A stretch of DNA of 54,546 nt, from positions 1 through 54,546 of IMG/VR virus record IMGVR_UViG_3300043015_001816; one strand, given 5' to 3'. This DNA is from a virus. A program made the translations under genes and the position numbers. Positions 1,632 through 45,695 of the stretch are shown piece by piece. The notes under the pieces were generated by a model, which saw only the letters and a list, made by a program, of their open reading frames with translations, was not told where the DNA came from and ran no database searches. How positions within the stretch are numbered: position 1 is the first letter of the stretch; each line of letters starts with the position of its first letter.

Positions 1632-1906
1632 AAAGAGTTATAAGTGCTGGAGAAAGAGCTGTTGAAGAACTTATAAAGGTTGCTGAAGAAGAAATCATAA
1701 CAGGTAAGCCTGATGATGAGTTAGCCGCTGACAGATTGAAGAATGCTGCGGCAACTAAAAAGCTTGCAATATTTGACGCCTTCGAAATACTACAGAGGAT
1801 AGAGAACGAAAGAGAAAAGCTTAATGGCACGGACGAACCTGAAACAAGTAAAGGAAAAGATAAAGGATTCCAAAGTTTCGCAGAATCTAGGGGAAGACAG
1901 TCTTAG
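1583..1906 (+). CDS. terS: Putative small terminase subunit (TerS), 107 aa
   Basis: Directly precedes and overlaps the large terminase gene by 83 bases in another frame, the usual place for TerS. The protein is almost wholly helical and charged (AGERAVEELIKVAEEEI, then DRLKNAAATKKLAIFDAFEIL), compatible with the oligomerising helices of TerS, which recognises phage DNA and delivers it to TerL. At 107 residues it is short for the family, and no clear N-terminal helix-turn-helix is visible. The call depends mainly on position and composition. Confidence 0.6.
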   Translation: MERDVSKQPSDVRKTIERVISAGERAVEELIKVAEEEIITGKPDDELAADRLKNAAATKKLAIFDAFEILQRIENEREKLNGTDEPETSKGKDKGFQSFAESRGRQS

Positions 1907-4103
1907 CCTTTGTCGCAAATTATCTGACATTGTTCCCGACTCTATTATTAAAAGGAACAATAAACTCAAGAAGTGGGAGTATGGATATAATAAGGATTAT
2001 AACATAATTATTATATCTAAAGATGGAACTTTAGGTGATGTTATTGAGATTCAAAATCTAAAAATAGGATTACCTTTGCAGCCGAAAACTACATACTCAA
2101 GGAGTGAAAAACAATCAGATCAGTATTGGGAACCAAGCGAATATCCAAAAGAACTTCAAAAGATTAAAAGCATTTTTCAATGGAATGAATATCCATCTTC
2201 ATTTAAAGAGTCTTGGATATTATATATTGAATCTGAATTTGAGAAAAGAGAGAATGGTTTTTGGTTTAAGAATAATGGTCATTCTACTTATATTACCGGC
2301 TCTCATTACATGTATCTCCAGTGGACCAAGATTGATGTTGGGCACCCAGAGTTTAGGGAATCAAACAGATTATTCTATATATTCTGGGAGGCATGCAAAG
2401 CTGATATCAGATGCTTTGGAATGTGCTACCTCAAAAACAGACGGTCTGGCTTTAGCTTCATGTCATCATCAGAAGCTGTTAATCAAGCCACCATTACTTC
2501 AGATGCTAGATTCGGCATCTTATCAAAAACAGGCTCTGATGCTAAGAAAATGTTTACAGATAAAGTTGTTCCAATATCCACAAACTATCCATTCTTCTTT
2601 AAACCAATACAAGACGGGATGGACAGGCCAAAGACAGAGCTTGCTTACAGAGTGCCAGCATCAAAGCTTACAAGGAAATCAATCGAGCAATCTAACACCG
2701 AAGATCTTACTGGGCTTGACACCACTATTGATTGGAAGAACACCGGAGATAACTCTTACGATGGCGAGAAGTTGCGACTCCTTGTCCATGATGAGTCTGG
2801 GAAGTGGGAAAGACCCGATAATATCCTCAACAACTGGAGAGTCACTAAAACTTGTCTTCGACTAGGTAGAAAAATTATTGGCAAGTGCATGATGGGATCA
2901 ACATCGAACGCCTTGGATAAGGGAGGGGACAACTTCAAAAAATTATATAGATCTTCTGACGTTACTGATCGTAATTCTAACGGACAAACAAAAAGTGGAA
3001 TGTATAATTTATTTATTCCAATGGAGTGGAATATGGAGGGGTTCATAGACAAGTATGGTCAACCTGTATTTAGGACTCCAGAGATTCCAGTGGAAGGTAT
3101 AGATGGAATGGATATAGATATAGGGGTCGTAGATTATTGGAATAATGAAGTGGAGTCCTTAAAGAACGACGCTGATGCTCTTAATGAATTTTACAGACAG
3201 TTTCCTAGAACAGAGAACCATGCTTTTAGGGACGAGTCTAAAAATACTCTTTATAATTTAAGCAGGATATACGAGCAGATAGATCATAACGATGGAATAG
3301 AAGGCCAAAGAGTTGTCCAAAAAGGAAACTTTTCTTGGAAAGATGGAAGAAAAGATACAGAAGTTATATGGACTCCAAATCCAAAGGGAAAGTTTTATGT
3401 AACATGGATACCTCCATTGGAACTTAGAAATAGAACTATAAATAGAAATGGCATAAAGTATCCTGGAAATGAACATATTGGTGCATTCGGATGTGATAGC
3501 TACGATATCTCTGGAACAGTAGGAGGGGGAGGGTCTAATGGGGCTTTACACGGATTGACTAAAGTTAATTTTGATGGACCATCAAATATGTTTTTTTTGG
3601 AATACATAAGCAGACCGCAGACCGCTGAAATATTTTATGAGGATGTGTTGATGGCGTGTGTATTTTATGGCATGCCAGTACTTGCGGAAAACAACAAACC
3701 AAGATTATTATACCATTTTAAGAACAGAGGATATAGAGGATTTAGTTTATCGAGACCAGATAAACATAAAAACGATTTATCAAAAGCAGAAAAAGAACTA
3801 GGAGGAATACCATCTTCTTCTGCCGTAATATCAATTCATGCCGAAGCTATTGAATCTTATATAGAAAAAAACGTTGGCTTTTCTGATTCTGGGTCTGGCA
3901 ACATGTACTTTACTAGGACTTTACTTGATTGGGCAAACTACGATATAAATAATAGAACTAAGTTTGACGCCACTGTTAGTTCTGGTTTTGCAATTATGGC
4001 TAATAACAAATATGTAAACAAACCACCAAAAACTGTTAAAGAAATAAATGTTACCTTTGCAAAGTACAATAATGGTGGAATAACTAGTACAATACTGAGA
4101 TAG
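1824..4103 (+). CDS. terL: Terminase large subunit (TerL), 759 aa
   Basis: TerL is the ATP-driven DNA packaging motor and headful/cos nuclease docked on the portal. An N-terminal ATPase region precedes a degenerate Walker A-like stretch near residue 205 (YLKNRRSGFSF), as in other Bacteroidetes-phage terminases where the classical GKS is replaced by a KxRRxG form. The C-terminal RNase H-like nuclease has acidic residues in IGAFGCDSYDISG (about residue 554) and VLAENNKP (about 622), then a conserved helix near 662. The length fits crAss-like terminases. TerS lies upstream and the portal gene seven bases downstream. The first 80 bases overlap TerS, so a later start is possible. Confidence 0.88.
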   Translation: MARTNLKQVKEKIKDSKVSQNLGEDSLSLCRKLSDIVPDSIIKRNNKLKKWEYGYNKDYNIIIISKDGTLGDVIEIQNLKIGLPLQPKTTYSRSEKQSDQYWEPSEYPKELQKIKSIFQWNEYPSSFKESWILYIESEFEKRENGFWFKNNGHSTYITGSHYMYLQWTKIDVGHPEFRESNRLFYIFWEACKADIRCFGMCYLKNRRSGFSFMSSSEAVNQATITSDARFGILSKTGSDAKKMFTDKVVPISTNYPFFFKPIQDGMDRPKTELAYRVPASKLTRKSIEQSNTEDLTGLDTTIDWKNTGDNSYDGEKLRLLVHDESGKWERPDNILNNWRVTKTCLRLGRKIIGKCMMGSTSNALDKGGDNFKKLYRSSDVTDRNSNGQTKSGMYNLFIPMEWNMEGFIDKYGQPVFRTPEIPVEGIDGMDIDIGVVDYWNNEVESLKNDADALNEFYRQFPRTENHAFRDESKNTLYNLSRIYEQIDHNDGIEGQRVVQKGNFSWKDGRKDTEVIWTPNPKGKFYVTWIPPLELRNRTINRNGIKYPGNEHIGAFGCDSYDISGTVGGGGSNGALHGLTKVNFDGPSNMFFLEYISRPQTAEIFYEDVLMACVFYGMPVLAENNKPRLLYHFKNRGYRGFSLSRPDKHKNDLSKAEKELGGIPSSSAVISIHAEAIESYIEKNVGFSDSGSGNMYFTRTLLDWANYDINNRTKFDATVSSGFAIMANNKYVNKPPKTVKEINVTFAKYNNGGITSTILR

Positions 4104-7775: not shown

Positions 7776-9113
7776 ATGTCTGTAACAATGACCGGAGTAG
7801 GTGGAGCTTTAACCCCCTCTCCTTCGAAAGCTACGCTTTCAAGTAATTATCTTGGGTCAAGTATTGAATTTACTTCTCAATACCTTCCCGATGTACACGA
7901 AAAAGAATTTGAAAAATACGGAAATCGTTCTGTATCTTCTTTTCTAAGAATGGTAGGAGCTGAAATGCCTTTTGCCTCTGATGTAATTCAGTGGTCTGAG
8001 CAAGGAAGACTTCACCTAGCTGTAACTGGTGCAACTAGAGCTGCTGATGTAATCACCTCTAATGGACACCCTTTCCGAGTAAACCAAACAGTAATTATTT
8101 CTGACGGAACTGACCAGGAAAAAGCCATCATAACTGCGACAACCACAAATACATTTACAGTTGCCTCTTATGAGAATGCGAATCTTGCAGCAGCTATTGC
8201 CACAACTGGCCTTAGTGTATTTGCTTTTGGTTCTGAATTCAAAAAAGGAACTAATGGAATGTCTGGAAGTCTAGAGGCTCCTAAAGATATCCAAACCAAT
8301 AACCCAATTATTATCAAAGATAAATATGAAGTTAATGGTTCTGACTTAGCTCAGATCGGATGGATTGAGGTGACTACTGAAAATGGCGCTACTGGATATC
8401 TATGGTATTTGAAATCAGAGCATGAAACTCGTTTGCGTTTTGAAGATTACCTAGAACTTTCTTTGGTGGAAGGTAGACCTGCTGCAACCTCTTCTGGTGC
8501 TGAAGGAGCTGGATACAAAGGAACTAAAGGTTTGTTCTATGAAATCGAAAACAGAGGTAACATTGCTACTGGTTCAATTCAAGCTAGAACTGACATTGAA
8601 GAACTAATTAAAGTTCTAGATAAAGAAGGAGCTATTCAAGAAAACGTCATGTTCGTTAACAGAACTAAATCTTTCGAGATTGATACTGTTTTGGCTGCTC
8701 AAAATAACTCTGGTGCTTCTACTGCATCTTATGGTTTGTTTGACAACGACGAAAGCATGGCCTTAAATCTTGGATTTATGGGCTTTAACTTGGGATATGA
8801 TTTCTACAAGTCTGATTGGAAATATTTGAATGACGCTACTACAGGAGCTTTAACTGCTGGTGTAGACGGAGTTATTGTACCTGCTGGTACCACCACTATT
8901 TACGATCAAATTCTAGGGAAGAACGCTACTCGTCCTTTCTTACATGTAAAATATCGCAAGTCAGAAGCTGAAGACAGAAAGTATAAGTCTTGGGTAGTTG
9001 GATCCGCTGGAGGAGCTGGAATGTCTAGCGACTTGGATGCAATGCAAGTACACTTCTTGTCTGAGCGTGCACTATGTGTGCTTGGCGCTAACAACTTTAT
9101 CTTGATGAAGTAG
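7776..9113 (+). CDS. Major capsid protein, 445 aa
   Basis: Forms the icosahedral shell (HK97-fold expected). The N-terminal TSQYLPDVHEKEFEKYG and SVSSFLRMVGAEMPFASD segments and the C-terminal DAMQVHFLSERALCVLGANN match what I recall of capsid proteins of crAss-like and Cellulophaga podophages. Codon use is biased and the gene is followed by a strong GC hairpin, both consistent with high expression. A beta-rich insertion near residues 80-150 (about 8010-8230) resembles an Ig-like or insertion domain. Position after the scaffold supports the call. Confidence 0.88.
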   Translation: MSVTMTGVGGALTPSPSKATLSSNYLGSSIEFTSQYLPDVHEKEFEKYGNRSVSSFLRMVGAEMPFASDVIQWSEQGRLHLAVTGATRAADVITSNGHPFRVNQTVIISDGTDQEKAIITATTTNTFTVASYENANLAAAIATTGLSVFAFGSEFKKGTNGMSGSLEAPKDIQTNNPIIIKDKYEVNGSDLAQIGWIEVTTENGATGYLWYLKSEHETRLRFEDYLELSLVEGRPAATSSGAEGAGYKGTKGLFYEIENRGNIATGSIQARTDIEELIKVLDKEGAIQENVMFVNRTKSFEIDTVLAAQNNSGASTASYGLFDNDESMALNLGFMGFNLGYDFYKSDWKYLNDATTGALTAGVDGVIVPAGTTTIYDQILGKNATRPFLHVKYRKSEAEDRKYKSWVVGSAGGAGMSSDLDAMQVHFLSERALCVLGANNFILMK

Positions 9114-42002: not shown

Positions 42003-42096
42003 GAAAGCGTTGGGGGGGTGCGTTTGTCAGATGCGTTTTCTGTACGACATGTAGATCTGTAATGTATATATAACCCAAAACCAAAACATTTCTAAC

Positions 42097-42167
42097 GTGG
42101 CACAAAAAGTGGACATTAGTTGTATACTACTTATGGTGTACAGTTATTTGGCGTCTTTTTATGCCAC
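42097..42167. repeat. Inverted repeat GTGGCAnAAAAA
   Basis: GTGGCACAAAAA (42097-42108) and its near-inverse TTTTTATGCCAC (42156-42167) match at 11 of 12 bases with 47 bases between. Symmetric arms around an AT-rich centre suit an origin or regulator binding site. Confidence 0.6.
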
Positions 42168-42339
42168 ACTTTTCAACTCACATAGTATTGTCGTTTTTCA
42201 CCCTTTATATATAGAATGAAAAAGTACAAATATGCCTATAACAGGAAGGTGACAATAAATAAAACGCAATAGGTAACAAAGTGTCCCATAATGGTACATA
42301 AATATATGACAATAGCGAACAGTGTATAATATTATTTCT

Positions 42340-42347: not shown

Positions 42348-42377
42348 ACTGTTGCATAATTTTTCTTTTAAATGATG

Positions 42378-42415
42378 AGAGGGGGTGAATCCTTTGAAGC
42401 CTCCTCTTTTTTTTT
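42378..42415 (+). terminator. Rho-independent terminator close to a promoter element
   Basis: AGAGGGGG (42378-42385) pairs with CCTCCTCT (42400-42407, one G:T), followed by nine T residues. It lies upstream of the 44-residue gene. Confidence 0.85.
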
Positions 42416-42431
42416 AACAACACATAGAGAT

Positions 42432-42566
42432 ATGACTAGTATTAATTTTATATTCCAACCTCCTTATGCCTTAATGGTTGGAGCGGAAGTATTTCAAAGT
42501 AATGAAGATAAGATCGATGGGTTCGCCATACATCTTTTACTTTTTAGCGTAGAGGTTTATTGGTAG
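42432..42566 (+). CDS. Small hypothetical protein, 44 aa
   Basis: Begins MTSINFIFQPPYALMVGAEV and ends with IHLLLFSVEVYW. The pattern of two hydrophobic strands around a small acidic turn looks like a real short protein; a longer in-frame start at 42372 lies inside the terminator hairpin and is rejected. It is not recognised. It precedes the groEL promoter. Confidence 0.5.
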   Translation: MTSINFIFQPPYALMVGAEVFQSNEDKIDGFAIHLLLFSVEVYW

Positions 42567-42590
42567 ATTTGTCAATTAATGTTATATTTG
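42560..42590 (+). promoter_or_regulatory. groEL operon promoter, Bacteroidetes type
   Basis: TTG (42560-42562), 20-base spacer, exact TATATTTG (42583-42590); the groEL ATG is 25 bases further. It is the best promoter match in the window. The -33 region overlaps the end of the 44-residue gene. No CIRCE (TTAGCACTC) element is visible, so host HrcA control is unlikely. Confidence 0.7.
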
Positions 42591-42615
42591 TGGCATAAAT
42601 CAAATACAATATAAC

Positions 42616-44208
42616 ATGATTGAAAAAGATATAGACTTTGACAAGGACGCTAAGGACAAACTTAAGTCTGGAGTAGACAAGATTGCTAATGCAGTTAAAT
42701 CTACATTGGGAGCAGCAGGGACAACTGTAATCTTAGAGGACGATTTAGGTAGACCTCATGTAACAAAAGATGGGGTGACTGTAGCTAGATATGTTAACCT
42801 TTCTGATCCGGTAGAGCATCTTGCTGCGGAGATTGTAAAGCAGGCATCTATAAAGACTGCTGATGAAGCTGGGGATGGAACAACTACATCTATTGTTTTG
42901 GCTCAAGCAATAATTAACGAGGCATTCAGAGAGCTGGAGGATAATCCTGAGCTAAATGTAACTTCTTTAAGGAAGGCTATTGAGGAGGCTTCAGAGGTCG
43001 TTTGTGGTTTTCTTGATAGTAAGGCAAAGCCTGTAGACGAAAACAGTCTTAAATACGTTGCCACTATTTCAGCTAATAATGATCCTGAACTTGGAAAGAT
43101 CATATCAGAGGCATACAATATTGTTGGGGTTGATGGAGTTCTTACAATAGAAGAGTCAATGTCTAAGGATACTCATGTAGAGATTGCTGAAGGAACTAGA
43201 ATAAAGAGAGGATTTCATTCTCCGTATCTTATAACTGACAAAGAAAAGAATCAAGCCGTCTTGGAAAACCCCCTTGTATTAATTGCAGACAAGAAGGTTA
43301 ATACTATAGAAGACATTGAGCTTCCATTGAAAGCGGCAATGGGAGTTAAAAGACCTATCCTTATTATAGCGGATGTTGAGACTGCTGTTATGAATACACT
43401 CAATGTAAACAAAGCTAGGGGCATCTTGCAAGTTAATGTTCTAACCCCAGAAGGAGTTGGACTAAATAGATTTGAACTTCTAGAGGACTTGGCGGTCATG
43501 ACAGGAGCTACTGTAGTATCTGATGATACAGGTAACGATTGGAATGGTGTGACAGCTGAGTTTCTTGGCGAAGCCAAAAAGTCGGTGTCAACAAACAAAG
43601 AGACTATCTTAACTCTAAATTTAAAAAAAACAGCTGCCGCTGTTAAAGAACAAGCAGAGAGGGTGAGATCTGTCCTAAAGTCTAAAGAGGACACGGATAA
43701 CAACTGGCATTATAAAGACAGGCTTTCAAGGCTAGCTGGAGGTATTGCTGTTATATATGTAGGGGCTCTTAGTGAGGTGGAGATGAAAGAGAGGAAGGAT
43801 AGGGTTGATGATGCTGTGTCTGCTACAAGGGCCGCTTTAGAGGAAGGTATACTTCCAGGTGGAGGGTCCGCACTGTTTCATGCAACAAGCAAACTGCAAA
43901 GCAAACAGATTAAATCTAAAAGCAAGGAGATTCAAAAAGGATATCACATACTTCAAAATGCTATAGAGCAGCCATTCATTACGATACTTGAAAACGCTGG
44001 TGCAAATCATATGTATGCTGCTATTGAGATATTTAAGTCCGGAAGACACACAACTGGATATGACGTAAAAAAGAACAGAACTGGCAACATGTATTCTTTC
44101 GGTATCATAGATCCTTTAAAGGTAACAAAGAACGCTTTGAGAAATGCAGTATCTGTTGCCACTACAATACTTCAAACTAACTGTGTGATTTCAAATAAAA
44201 GAGCATGA
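42616..44208 (+). CDS. groEL: Phage GroEL chaperonin (Cpn60), 530 aa
   Basis: ATP-driven folding cage. Key residues sit at the E. coli positions: TLG at 30-32, KDG with Asp52, AGDGTTT at 85-91 with catalytic Asp87, and RVDDAVSATRAALEEG with Asp398, followed by LPGGG. The substrate-binding apical region is present but diverged (GFHSPYLITDKEKN), and the E. coli APGFGD segment is replaced by TPEGVGLNRFE. The GGM-rich C-terminal tail is missing, so it is 530 versus 548 residues. The stop overlaps groES by four bases; the order groEL-groES is the reverse of bacterial groES-groEL. Codon use resembles its neighbours. It is predicted to fold phage capsid or tail proteins. Confidence 0.95.
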   Translation: MIEKDIDFDKDAKDKLKSGVDKIANAVKSTLGAAGTTVILEDDLGRPHVTKDGVTVARYVNLSDPVEHLAAEIVKQASIKTADEAGDGTTTSIVLAQAIINEAFRELEDNPELNVTSLRKAIEEASEVVCGFLDSKAKPVDENSLKYVATISANNDPELGKIISEAYNIVGVDGVLTIEESMSKDTHVEIAEGTRIKRGFHSPYLITDKEKNQAVLENPLVLIADKKVNTIEDIELPLKAAMGVKRPILIIADVETAVMNTLNVNKARGILQVNVLTPEGVGLNRFELLEDLAVMTGATVVSDDTGNDWNGVTAEFLGEAKKSVSTNKETILTLNLKKTAAAVKEQAERVRSVLKSKEDTDNNWHYKDRLSRLAGGIAVIYVGALSEVEMKERKDRVDDAVSATRAALEEGILPGGGSALFHATSKLQSKQIKSKSKEIQKGYHILQNAIEQPFITILENAGANHMYAAIEIFKSGRHTTGYDVKKNRTGNMYSFGIIDPLKVTKNALRNAVSVATTILQTNCVISNKRA

Positions 44209-44483
44209 GCAAGGTGTCAAAAAGTTTTAAAGCTATAGGATCATTTGTTGTTTTAGAGAAAGAGAAGGAGGAGGTAAAAAATTCAATGGGCCTTATTATG
44301 ACTGAAGCCAACGAGAAAGATATAAGGTATAAGTTGGCTAAGGTTAAATCTGTAGGTGATGATGTTTTGGGTATATGCAATGGAGATTCCGTTTATTTTG
44401 ATTCTGCTGCTGGGTCTGACATTCGTATCAATGGGGATAAGCTAACCATCGTTCACGACAGGAACATTGTGGTGGTTCTGTGA
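44205..44483 (+). CDS. groES: Phage GroES co-chaperonin (Cpn10), 92 aa
   Basis: Lid of the GroEL cage. The order matches GroES: first strand SFVVLEKEKEEV, a mobile loop NSMGLIMTEANEKD in place of the usual GGIVL loop, AKVKSVGD, GDSVYF and a C-terminal strand DRNIVVVL. The loop keeps the hydrophobic tripeptide (LIM) that docks on GroEL. Translation is coupled to groEL through ATGA overlap, and the next gene starts with GTG in the stop region. The sequence is diverged and dissimilar from the 181-residue GroES-like protein at 658. Confidence 0.85.
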   Translation: MSKVSKSFKAIGSFVVLEKEKEEVKNSMGLIMTEANEKDIRYKLAKVKSVGDDVLGICNGDSVYFDSAAGSDIRINGDKLTIVHDRNIVVVL

Positions 44484-45223
44484 AACTCTTTGAGTATGTA
44501 GATGACAGTCAGCATCAGCTGATGACTCAGCACGACTTCAAAGGAGCTGACTTTGTTTGGTACAATTCTCCAGTAGATCACTATGACATAAGACAAATAC
44601 ATAGTAAGATATCTGGCTTTGATCATCTTCAATATTATGCGGAGGTTTACTTTCATCTTAATCCAGATTTAAACTTATCAATATTTAAGGGTTTGTTTCA
44701 TTGGCTTGGAACTAGAGAAAGTGGAAGGAGTGTTAGAACTTATGGTAAGCCAAGAATAGATCAAATGATTGAAATGGTTTATTATAGAAAGCCTCACCCT
44801 TGGTGTAGAAGAAAAAGAAGGGTTGTTTTTAATCCCGAAGTAATAATCTCTCCTGTTGAAAAAATGAGCATAACCGCTACTATTGTTGGTAGAGGTGTGT
44901 CTTACACTAAAAAGGATTTACTAAATGTTTTAGATTCCATGTACAGAGCCAGAATGCTGGCAACACAGGATAGTATTGCTGACAATCTAGGGTGCAGTAA
45001 AAGAACAATACAAAGGCTGATGACTAAAACCATGAAAACAATAGTAAACAACAATAACAAGTTAATTAAGAGAGAAGAAAAAATATCTAAAGTTATTGAA
45101 TGGATTGACGTGTTGAGTTCAGAAGGAGAAAAACTTAAGATGAGATACTTAAAAGATATAACTAACGTTAGAGATTACTCAATACTTAAGGAGGCTATAA
45201 CTCGATATGAGGATCAGTGGTAG
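44480..45223 (+). CDS. Helix-turn-helix protein at end of chaperonin operon, 247 aa
   Basis: Starts GTG within the groES stop (GTGA). The N-terminal half is mixed, with FNPEVIISPVEKMS and a basic central region (HPWCRRKRRVVF). Residues about 170-200 form an HTH: TQDSIADNLGCSKRTIQRLM, followed by a long charged helix. It probably binds DNA and may regulate the operon or act in late transcription. The 3' end overlaps the oppositely oriented gene at 45195 by 29 bases. The family is not known to me. Confidence 0.65.
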   Translation: MKLFEYVDDSQHQLMTQHDFKGADFVWYNSPVDHYDIRQIHSKISGFDHLQYYAEVYFHLNPDLNLSIFKGLFHWLGTRESGRSVRTYGKPRIDQMIEMVYYRKPHPWCRRKRRVVFNPEVIISPVEKMSITATIVGRGVSYTKKDLLNVLDSMYRARMLATQDSIADNLGCSKRTIQRLMTKTMKTIVNNNNKLIKREEKISKVIEWIDVLSSEGEKLKMRYLKDITNVRDYSILKEAITRYEDQW

Positions 45224-45695
45224 TTGTTCTGTAGTTCATTTTCTTTATAAGACTCCTATATACTTTATCCATGTAAGTTTCCCCTTTCATTATTTTGTTT
45301 TTGTATGGATCTTCTGATATTGTTTCCATTCCTAGAAGTTTTTTATATGTATGGGAACATATAAGTTTTGCTTTTTGAGTTAGCTGGTATAGTTGTTTAT
45401 GCTTTGCTACTTTTCCTTTTCTCCAAACAACTATTAATTCTCTATCTACCATATCACTGAACCTGCCTCTATCCCACGACATAGAGTTGGCAAACTTATT
45501 AAAAAGTTCTTTATCGAATACGTTTTCATCGTAAAGAAACAAAAGCATTTCCAGCTCTGATAGACTGAGCTCGTATCTTTTTTGTATATAGTATCTAACA
45601 ATTCTCCAGTTTTTTAAAAAATCAAACTCTCTTTCTGTGGGTTTATATACGGGAGTTTTTTTAGGTTTCTTTTTCAGGTAGTACCTGTTATACAT
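45195..45695 (-). CDS. Winged-helix/MarR-like regulator, 166 aa
   Basis: The only leftward gene in this rightward half. The middle has ELSLSELEMLLFLYDENVFD and a recognition-type helix with WDRGRFSDMVDRELI, then a wing-like basic strand (VVWRKGKVAKHKQLYQLTQK), as in MarR and related winged-helix proteins. The Lys-rich N-terminus (YLKKKPKKTPVYKP) suits DNA binding. Promoter elements for this gene and for the 45770 gene overlap, so it could control the switch of the small-protein and lysis block, or repress the phage. The fold is judged from pattern only. Confidence 0.6.
   Translation of the reverse strand: MYNRYYLKKKPKKTPVYKPTEREFDFLKNWRIVRYYIQKRYELSLSELEMLLFLYDENVFDKELFNKFANSMSWDRGRFSDMVDRELIVVWRKGKVAKHKQLYQLTQKAKLICSHTYKKLLGMETISEDPYKNKIMKGETYMDKVYRSLIKKMNYRTTTTDPHIEL

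Follow-up and report, generated by a model that had tools for sequence, protein, structure and literature searches.

The 54,546-base window analysed here (a whole IMG/VR virus record, classed as linear) carries a three-gene operon that is best explained as a group I chaperonin operon dedicated to the phage itself, a reading to which we assign a probability of roughly 0.68. All three genes lie on the + strand: groEL (42616-44208), groES (44205-44483) and a gene for a putative helix-turn-helix (HTH) DNA-binding protein of 247 residues with a GTG start (44480-45223; hereafter HTH247). They are joined by 4-base stop/start overlaps, ATGA and GTGA, just as the initial annotation had described. The phage GroEL/GroES operon is real, functional-looking and phage-specific, and in the best reading its two chaperonin products are a barrel and a lid that match each other and have been adapted to client proteins of the phage. 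Support for a dedicated operon comes from the adjacency of groEL and groES in each of the 20 close loci and from the conservation of this arrangement across GroEL identities of 62-97%.

Barrel and lid

The groEL product is a group I chaperonin of 530 residues, of which residues 23-528 cover positions 1-489 of the 490 in the Pfam Cpn60_TCP1 profile (E 3e-64, above the curated cut-off), so that the equatorial, intermediate and apical parts of a full-length Cpn60 are all represented; the protein also matches phrog_5725, chaperonin groEL (E 1e-139). The catalytic Asp52, Asp87 and Asp398 (E. coli numbering) claimed from the first inspection are all conserved in the alignment with E. coli GroEL, the last of them being residue 399 here. 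In the same alignment Ala stands in place of both P33 and K34 in the nucleotide loop (P33A, K34A), and the C-terminal GGM tail is lost, changes which could reduce GroEL activity. The groove that receives the lid and the substrate (Y199, Y203, F204, L234, L237, L259, V263 and V264) is kept in part, with the substitutions L234E, V263N, F204L and L259M. Both L234E and V263N occur in six of the six window-clade GroELs tabulated, whereas in the Bacteroidota GroELs shown these positions are Leu and Val. Homology and the conserved residues suggest that the phage GroEL would assemble into seven-fold rings and run an ATPase cycle. The GroEL of one relative (L009, 1302-2891) reads AGYGTTTS, with Tyr in place of Asp87 (D87Y), which is either a true loss or a sequencing error; activity may thus not be essential in every member of the group.

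The 92-residue GroES scores 41.1 bits against the curated Pfam Cpn10 model (E 2e-10; cut-off 21.1). Its mobile loop, EEVKNSMGLIMTE, already pointed out in the initial annotation, was recovered in the alignment with E. coli GroES; it carries a hydrophobic LIM where E. coli has IVL, and GLIM replaces GIVL in every clade member aligned. Judging from its sequence, the loop is of the GroEL-binding type. Between the flanking strands the mobile-loop stretch comprises 27 residues vs 25 in E. coli GroES. The roof hairpin is missing, 7 residues being aligned with the 16-residue E. coli stretch that holds it. The roof is likewise missing in all window-clade members aligned and in the named phages ctfjg026, Elemovirus and phi38:1, while immuto keeps it. 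Since T4 gp31 is also without a roof, the hairpin is dispensable for membership of the Cpn10 family. T4 gp31, which has no roof loops and a mobile loop of 22 residues vs 16, folds the 56-kDa capsid protein gp23 (PMC6318259), and the phage GroES described here resembles it as a lid without roof loops. The two differ in that the mobile loop of the phage GroES is only about 2 residues longer than that of E. coli GroES, and in that gp31 works with the host GroEL, whereas the window phage encodes its own.

Control region and neighbouring genes

Read by eye, the promoter upstream of groEL consists of TTG at 42560, a spacer of 20 nucleotides and the Bacteroidota -7 promoter element TATATTTG at 42583-42590 on the + strand. 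The TATATTTG element of the Bacteroidetes-type promoter claimed earlier was found in 10 of 10 aligned relatives, which does not hold for the TTG. An exact search for TTG-N19-TAnnTTTG returned no site at the groEL promoter, where the spacing is 20, and the number of such sites in the window was at chance level. The search for CIRCE-like sites that had been proposed as a check found none in the window at up to 3 mismatches, in agreement with the earlier claim of CIRCE absence, although this says little for a phage gene.

A perfect 10-bp dyad, ATGTTATATT-N19-AATATAACAT (42579-42617), has one arm overlapping TATATTTG and the other covering the groEL start, and was matched in none of 100 shuffles. 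It is retained in the window subclade, with a 9-bp core in L003, L007, L008 and L009, and L013 carries a different perfect dyad; no significant dyad was detected in L011, L014, L015 and L220, though all four carry the HTH gene. Being strong in the window subclade and not in these four relatives, the dyad is left as a candidate operator, plausibly for HTH247 or for the protein encoded at 45195-45695.

Several features had been overlooked: a small ORF directly before groEL, a conserved + strand hairpin before that ORF, the convergent gene at 45195-45695 and, far from the operon, a gene at 658-1203 whose product has a GroES fold. The small conserved ORF (42432-42566, + strand, 44 aa) stops 49 nt 5' of groEL, and its homologues in L002, L003, L007, L009, L011, L013 and L015 (eight sequences with the window) stop 48-49 nt before that gene. 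In L008, L014 and L220 its place is occupied by another + strand ORF, unrelated to it, whose Cys motifs look radical-SAM/SPASM-like by eye. The hairpin upstream of the small ORF (42377-42417, + strand) is terminator-like, with a T run and a fold z of -2.2, and similar hairpins that differ in sequence are present in L003 (z -3.7), L009 and L013; in this comparison the segments folded for L011 and L015 missed their hairpins. The genes to its left are on the - strand and the hairpin is on the + strand; it suggests an unannotated + strand transcript or leader. A conserved noncoding block of about 165 bp with a GTGGCA...TGCCAC dyad (42008-42173) lies between divergent gene blocks, is 79% identical to its counterparts in L003 and L007 and 73% to those in L009 and L011, and is a possible origin or control region. 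The Rfam search gave no RNA-element match. A consensus structure computed for this noncoding block contained no pairs, but the coordinates of two sequences were partly misplaced, so that this result carries little information.

A profile scan of IMG/VR with the 247-residue protein returned 20 close loci, and in all of them the HTH247 gene lies directly behind groES, itself behind groEL. Two distant homologues of 27% and 34% identity (G008/L233 and L240) are also encoded directly behind groES, and one (G009) sits elsewhere in its genome; no homologue was found among the named phages of the collection searched, nor in Elemovirus and ctfjg026, where it was looked for. The HTH247 gene is therefore a true recurrent operon partner in this branch and no accident. 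Of the claimed DNA-binding HTH partner, the conserved third gene stands, but the HTH signature is weak: the HTH_36 match of 16.5 bits is under the Pfam cut-off of 25, the comparison with PHROG transcription-regulation families gave E 3e-4, and the CRP-like profile matches E about 1. The structure prediction (pLDDT 65 overall) was of low confidence and yielded no usable fold match. HTH247 would most likely regulate the chaperonin operon or a phage gene set co-transcribed with it, with the dyad at the groEL start as the candidate site.

The convergent neighbour (45195-45695, - strand, 166 aa) is a probable winged-helix regulator, MarR/PadR-like, whose profile resembles MarR/PadR structures weakly (E 0.07-1). 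A member of its family (phrog_17028, the m20 family) adjoins the chaperonin genes in ctfjg026, in Elemovirus and in most of the IMG/VR relatives; among the 14 loci of the GroEL scan, the gene comes next wherever the contig is long enough. The ctfjg026 member of the family bears the name 'repressor protein'.

Relatives, ancestry and likely function

Complete chaperonin sets had been regarded as rare in phages, but the operon is more widely spread in this phage group than was held, as the relatives carry both genes. GroEL and GroES are both encoded in five of the five named records examined (ctfjg026, Elemovirus, phi38:1, Panino and the more distant immuto) and in eight of eight IMG/VR contigs of at least 45 kb that bear a GroES-fold gene linked to the terminase large subunit gene (TerL); the four tested contigs in which GroEL is missing are fragments shorter than 42 kb. 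GroEL-like matches occur in 289 public phage records, a count that includes some bacterial sequences filed as phage (e.g., L120). The window terminase (large subunit, 1824-4103, + strand; phrog_6681, E 7e-169) shares 65% identity with its counterpart in ctfjg026 (MW202828, podovirus, Manatee Spring) and 44% with that of Elemovirus. The IMG/VR scan with GroEL returned 14 loci of 62-97% identity, each of which encodes GroEL, GroES and the 247-residue protein in succession. The reversed order reported initially was thus confirmed but is not peculiar to the window: groEL precedes groES in 11 of 11 IMG/VR contigs holding both genes as well as in Elemovirus, ctfjg026 and Panino, with phi38:1 (ES-x-EL) and immuto (ES-EL) as exceptions, so that the order characterises this group of phages.

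Elemovirus (Flavobacterium phage elemo) and ctfjg026 resemble the window in having groEL followed by a groES for a roofless lid, the convergent m20-family neighbour and a GroES-fold gene before terL, but their GroELs are only 37-38% identical to that of the window. Cellulophaga phage phi38:1 (Pervagoviridae) shares GroEL, GroES and the TerL-linked GroES-fold gene, but differs in gene order and has its m20 homologue elsewhere in the genome. The bacterial groES-groEL operons (E. coli; Bacteroidota) encode the same two protein families with the same catalytic residues; their gene order is opposite, and the GGM tail and the roof, missing in the window, are present in bacteria.

If the operon is indeed dedicated to the phage, the Bacteroidota-type promoter would give rise to a single transcript encoding GroEL together with its own GroES. 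As homology and the kept residues suggest, GroES would cap GroEL via the GLIM-type mobile loop and the substrate would fold inside in an ATP-driven cycle. The roofless GroES would leave the closed chamber open at its top, which would suit phage proteins whose size approaches the limit, and the polar substitutions in the groove of GroEL, matched by the altered mobile-loop tripeptide, may reflect co-evolution of the pair away from the host lid. We infer both this lid specificity and the identity of the client. The likeliest client would be the virion protein encoded at 7776-9113 (445 aa, 48.1 kDa, phrog_13704), a capsid candidate to which its size and the T4 precedent point. The size limit of the closed GroEL chamber is about 60 kDa. 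Service to the very large tail and capsid proteins of this phage, as first proposed, is therefore unlikely, as the proteins of 278, 201 and 152 kDa exceed the chamber, whereas the capsid candidate of about 48 kDa fits.

The operon might instead be a fitness or stress accessory that increases the overall capacity for folding during infection, to the benefit of host as well as phage proteins, without a dedicated phage client. The conventional catalytic core of GroEL would agree with such a role, as would the location of the operon, which lies in the area between the replication genes and the virion genes and outside the head module. However, the roofless lid and the altered groove are kept over a divergent clade, which argues for specialisation, and throughout entire families of phages the operon is inherited together with a single virion module; we consider a general accessory role unlikely. 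Another view takes its model from the giant phages EL, OBP and AR9, which, like the window phage, encode GroEL homologues, and whose studied chaperonins act without GroES (PMC7185714, PMC9598537). EL and AR9 are 27-30% identical to the window GroEL. That the window GroEL works in this way, with a vestigial GroES, seems quite improbable, since GroES is the conserved next gene after groEL in all close relatives, retains 64-100% identity with its loop intact, and is adjacent to or overlapping groEL throughout; moreover, bacterial GroELs (40-44% identity) are closer to the window GroEL than EL, OBP and AR9 are.

That the phage recently took up a host groE operon which plays no specialised part is excluded in practice by identity and tree comparisons, and we rejected it on these grounds. 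Among the bacterial GroELs found, identity to the window GroEL ranges over 40-44% and is at best about 44%, too low for a recent capture. Two trees, which have long branches and E. coli as their sole root, each unite the GroELs of this kind of phage (19 rows, with 100/99 support, in the second) and place them outside the sampled bacterial Bacteroidota with immuto as neighbour. The opposite gene order and the lack of CIRCE speak in the same direction. The initial annotation had considered that GroEL might fall inside a recent host clade with CIRCE present; the identities of at most 44%, the separate group and the absence of CIRCE are what was found instead. A sister relation of the phage group to the GroELs of Flavobacteriaceae was not rejected in the AU test (p 0.497), and an old flavobacterial origin, by capture from an ancestor of that lineage long ago, is conceivable.

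A second GroES-fold protein and its implications

Outside the operon, at 658-1203 on the + strand, the window encodes a tandem GroES-fold protein of 181 residues that is related to the lid by fold and matches PHROG 13932 'co-chaperonin GroES' (E 9e-16). In 80 of 80 homologous IMG/VR loci a member of its family is encoded 5' of TerL in the same orientation, and the TerL-upstream gene is also present in Elemovirus, phi38:1, Panino and ctfjg026. The hhalign profile comparison tied the C-terminal half to GroES with a probability of 90%, and the phi38:1 copy exceeds the Pfam Cpn10 cut-off. The AlphaFold2 model (pLDDT 84.7) has two beta-rich halves, and its best PDB match over both domains is the chloroplast Cpn20 (7ekq_R; E 3e-5, TM 0.61/0.58); taken together, these comparisons show a GroES fold. 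Cpn20 likewise consists of two tandem GroES-fold domains, but the phage protein is only 14% identical to it, is without a conserved mobile loop/hydrophobic tripeptide and adjoins the terminase. The mobile-loop segment is absent from domain 1, and in the family comparison the loop of domain 2 is of variable length, lacks a common hydrophobic motif and is almost entirely lost in L186. The name 'co-chaperonin GroES' carried by RefSeq relatives is therefore doubtful, and in the absence of this GroEL-binding feature a head or packaging role is likelier. In the crAss-like cr111_1, a '10kDa chaperonin' with a weak GroES match is encoded a few genes before TerL (L124, 5807-6217); its homology to the 658-1203 protein was not supported, none being detectable in one comparison.

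We tentatively propose, as a possibility rather than an expectation, that the two GroES-fold proteins of these Bacteroidota phages divide their labour, one being the roofless lid of GroEL and the other a TerL-linked Cpn20-like protein that lacks the GroEL-binding loop and is repurposed for packaging or head assembly. If this were true, GroES architecture would have moved from protein folding into the DNA-packaging motor. The widespread label 'co-chaperonin GroES' beside the terminase probably needs correction, the fold being right and the GroEL-binding loop missing.

The well-studied phage systems consist of either a lid acting on the host GroEL, as in T4 gp31, or a GroEL without a lid, as in EL, OBP and AR9, whereas here a GroEL is matched with a roofless lid of its own. 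The operon makes it testable whether roof loss of the gp31 type is a general answer to capsid-protein folding, and whether the lid and the barrel may have co-evolved in a way that excludes the host partner.
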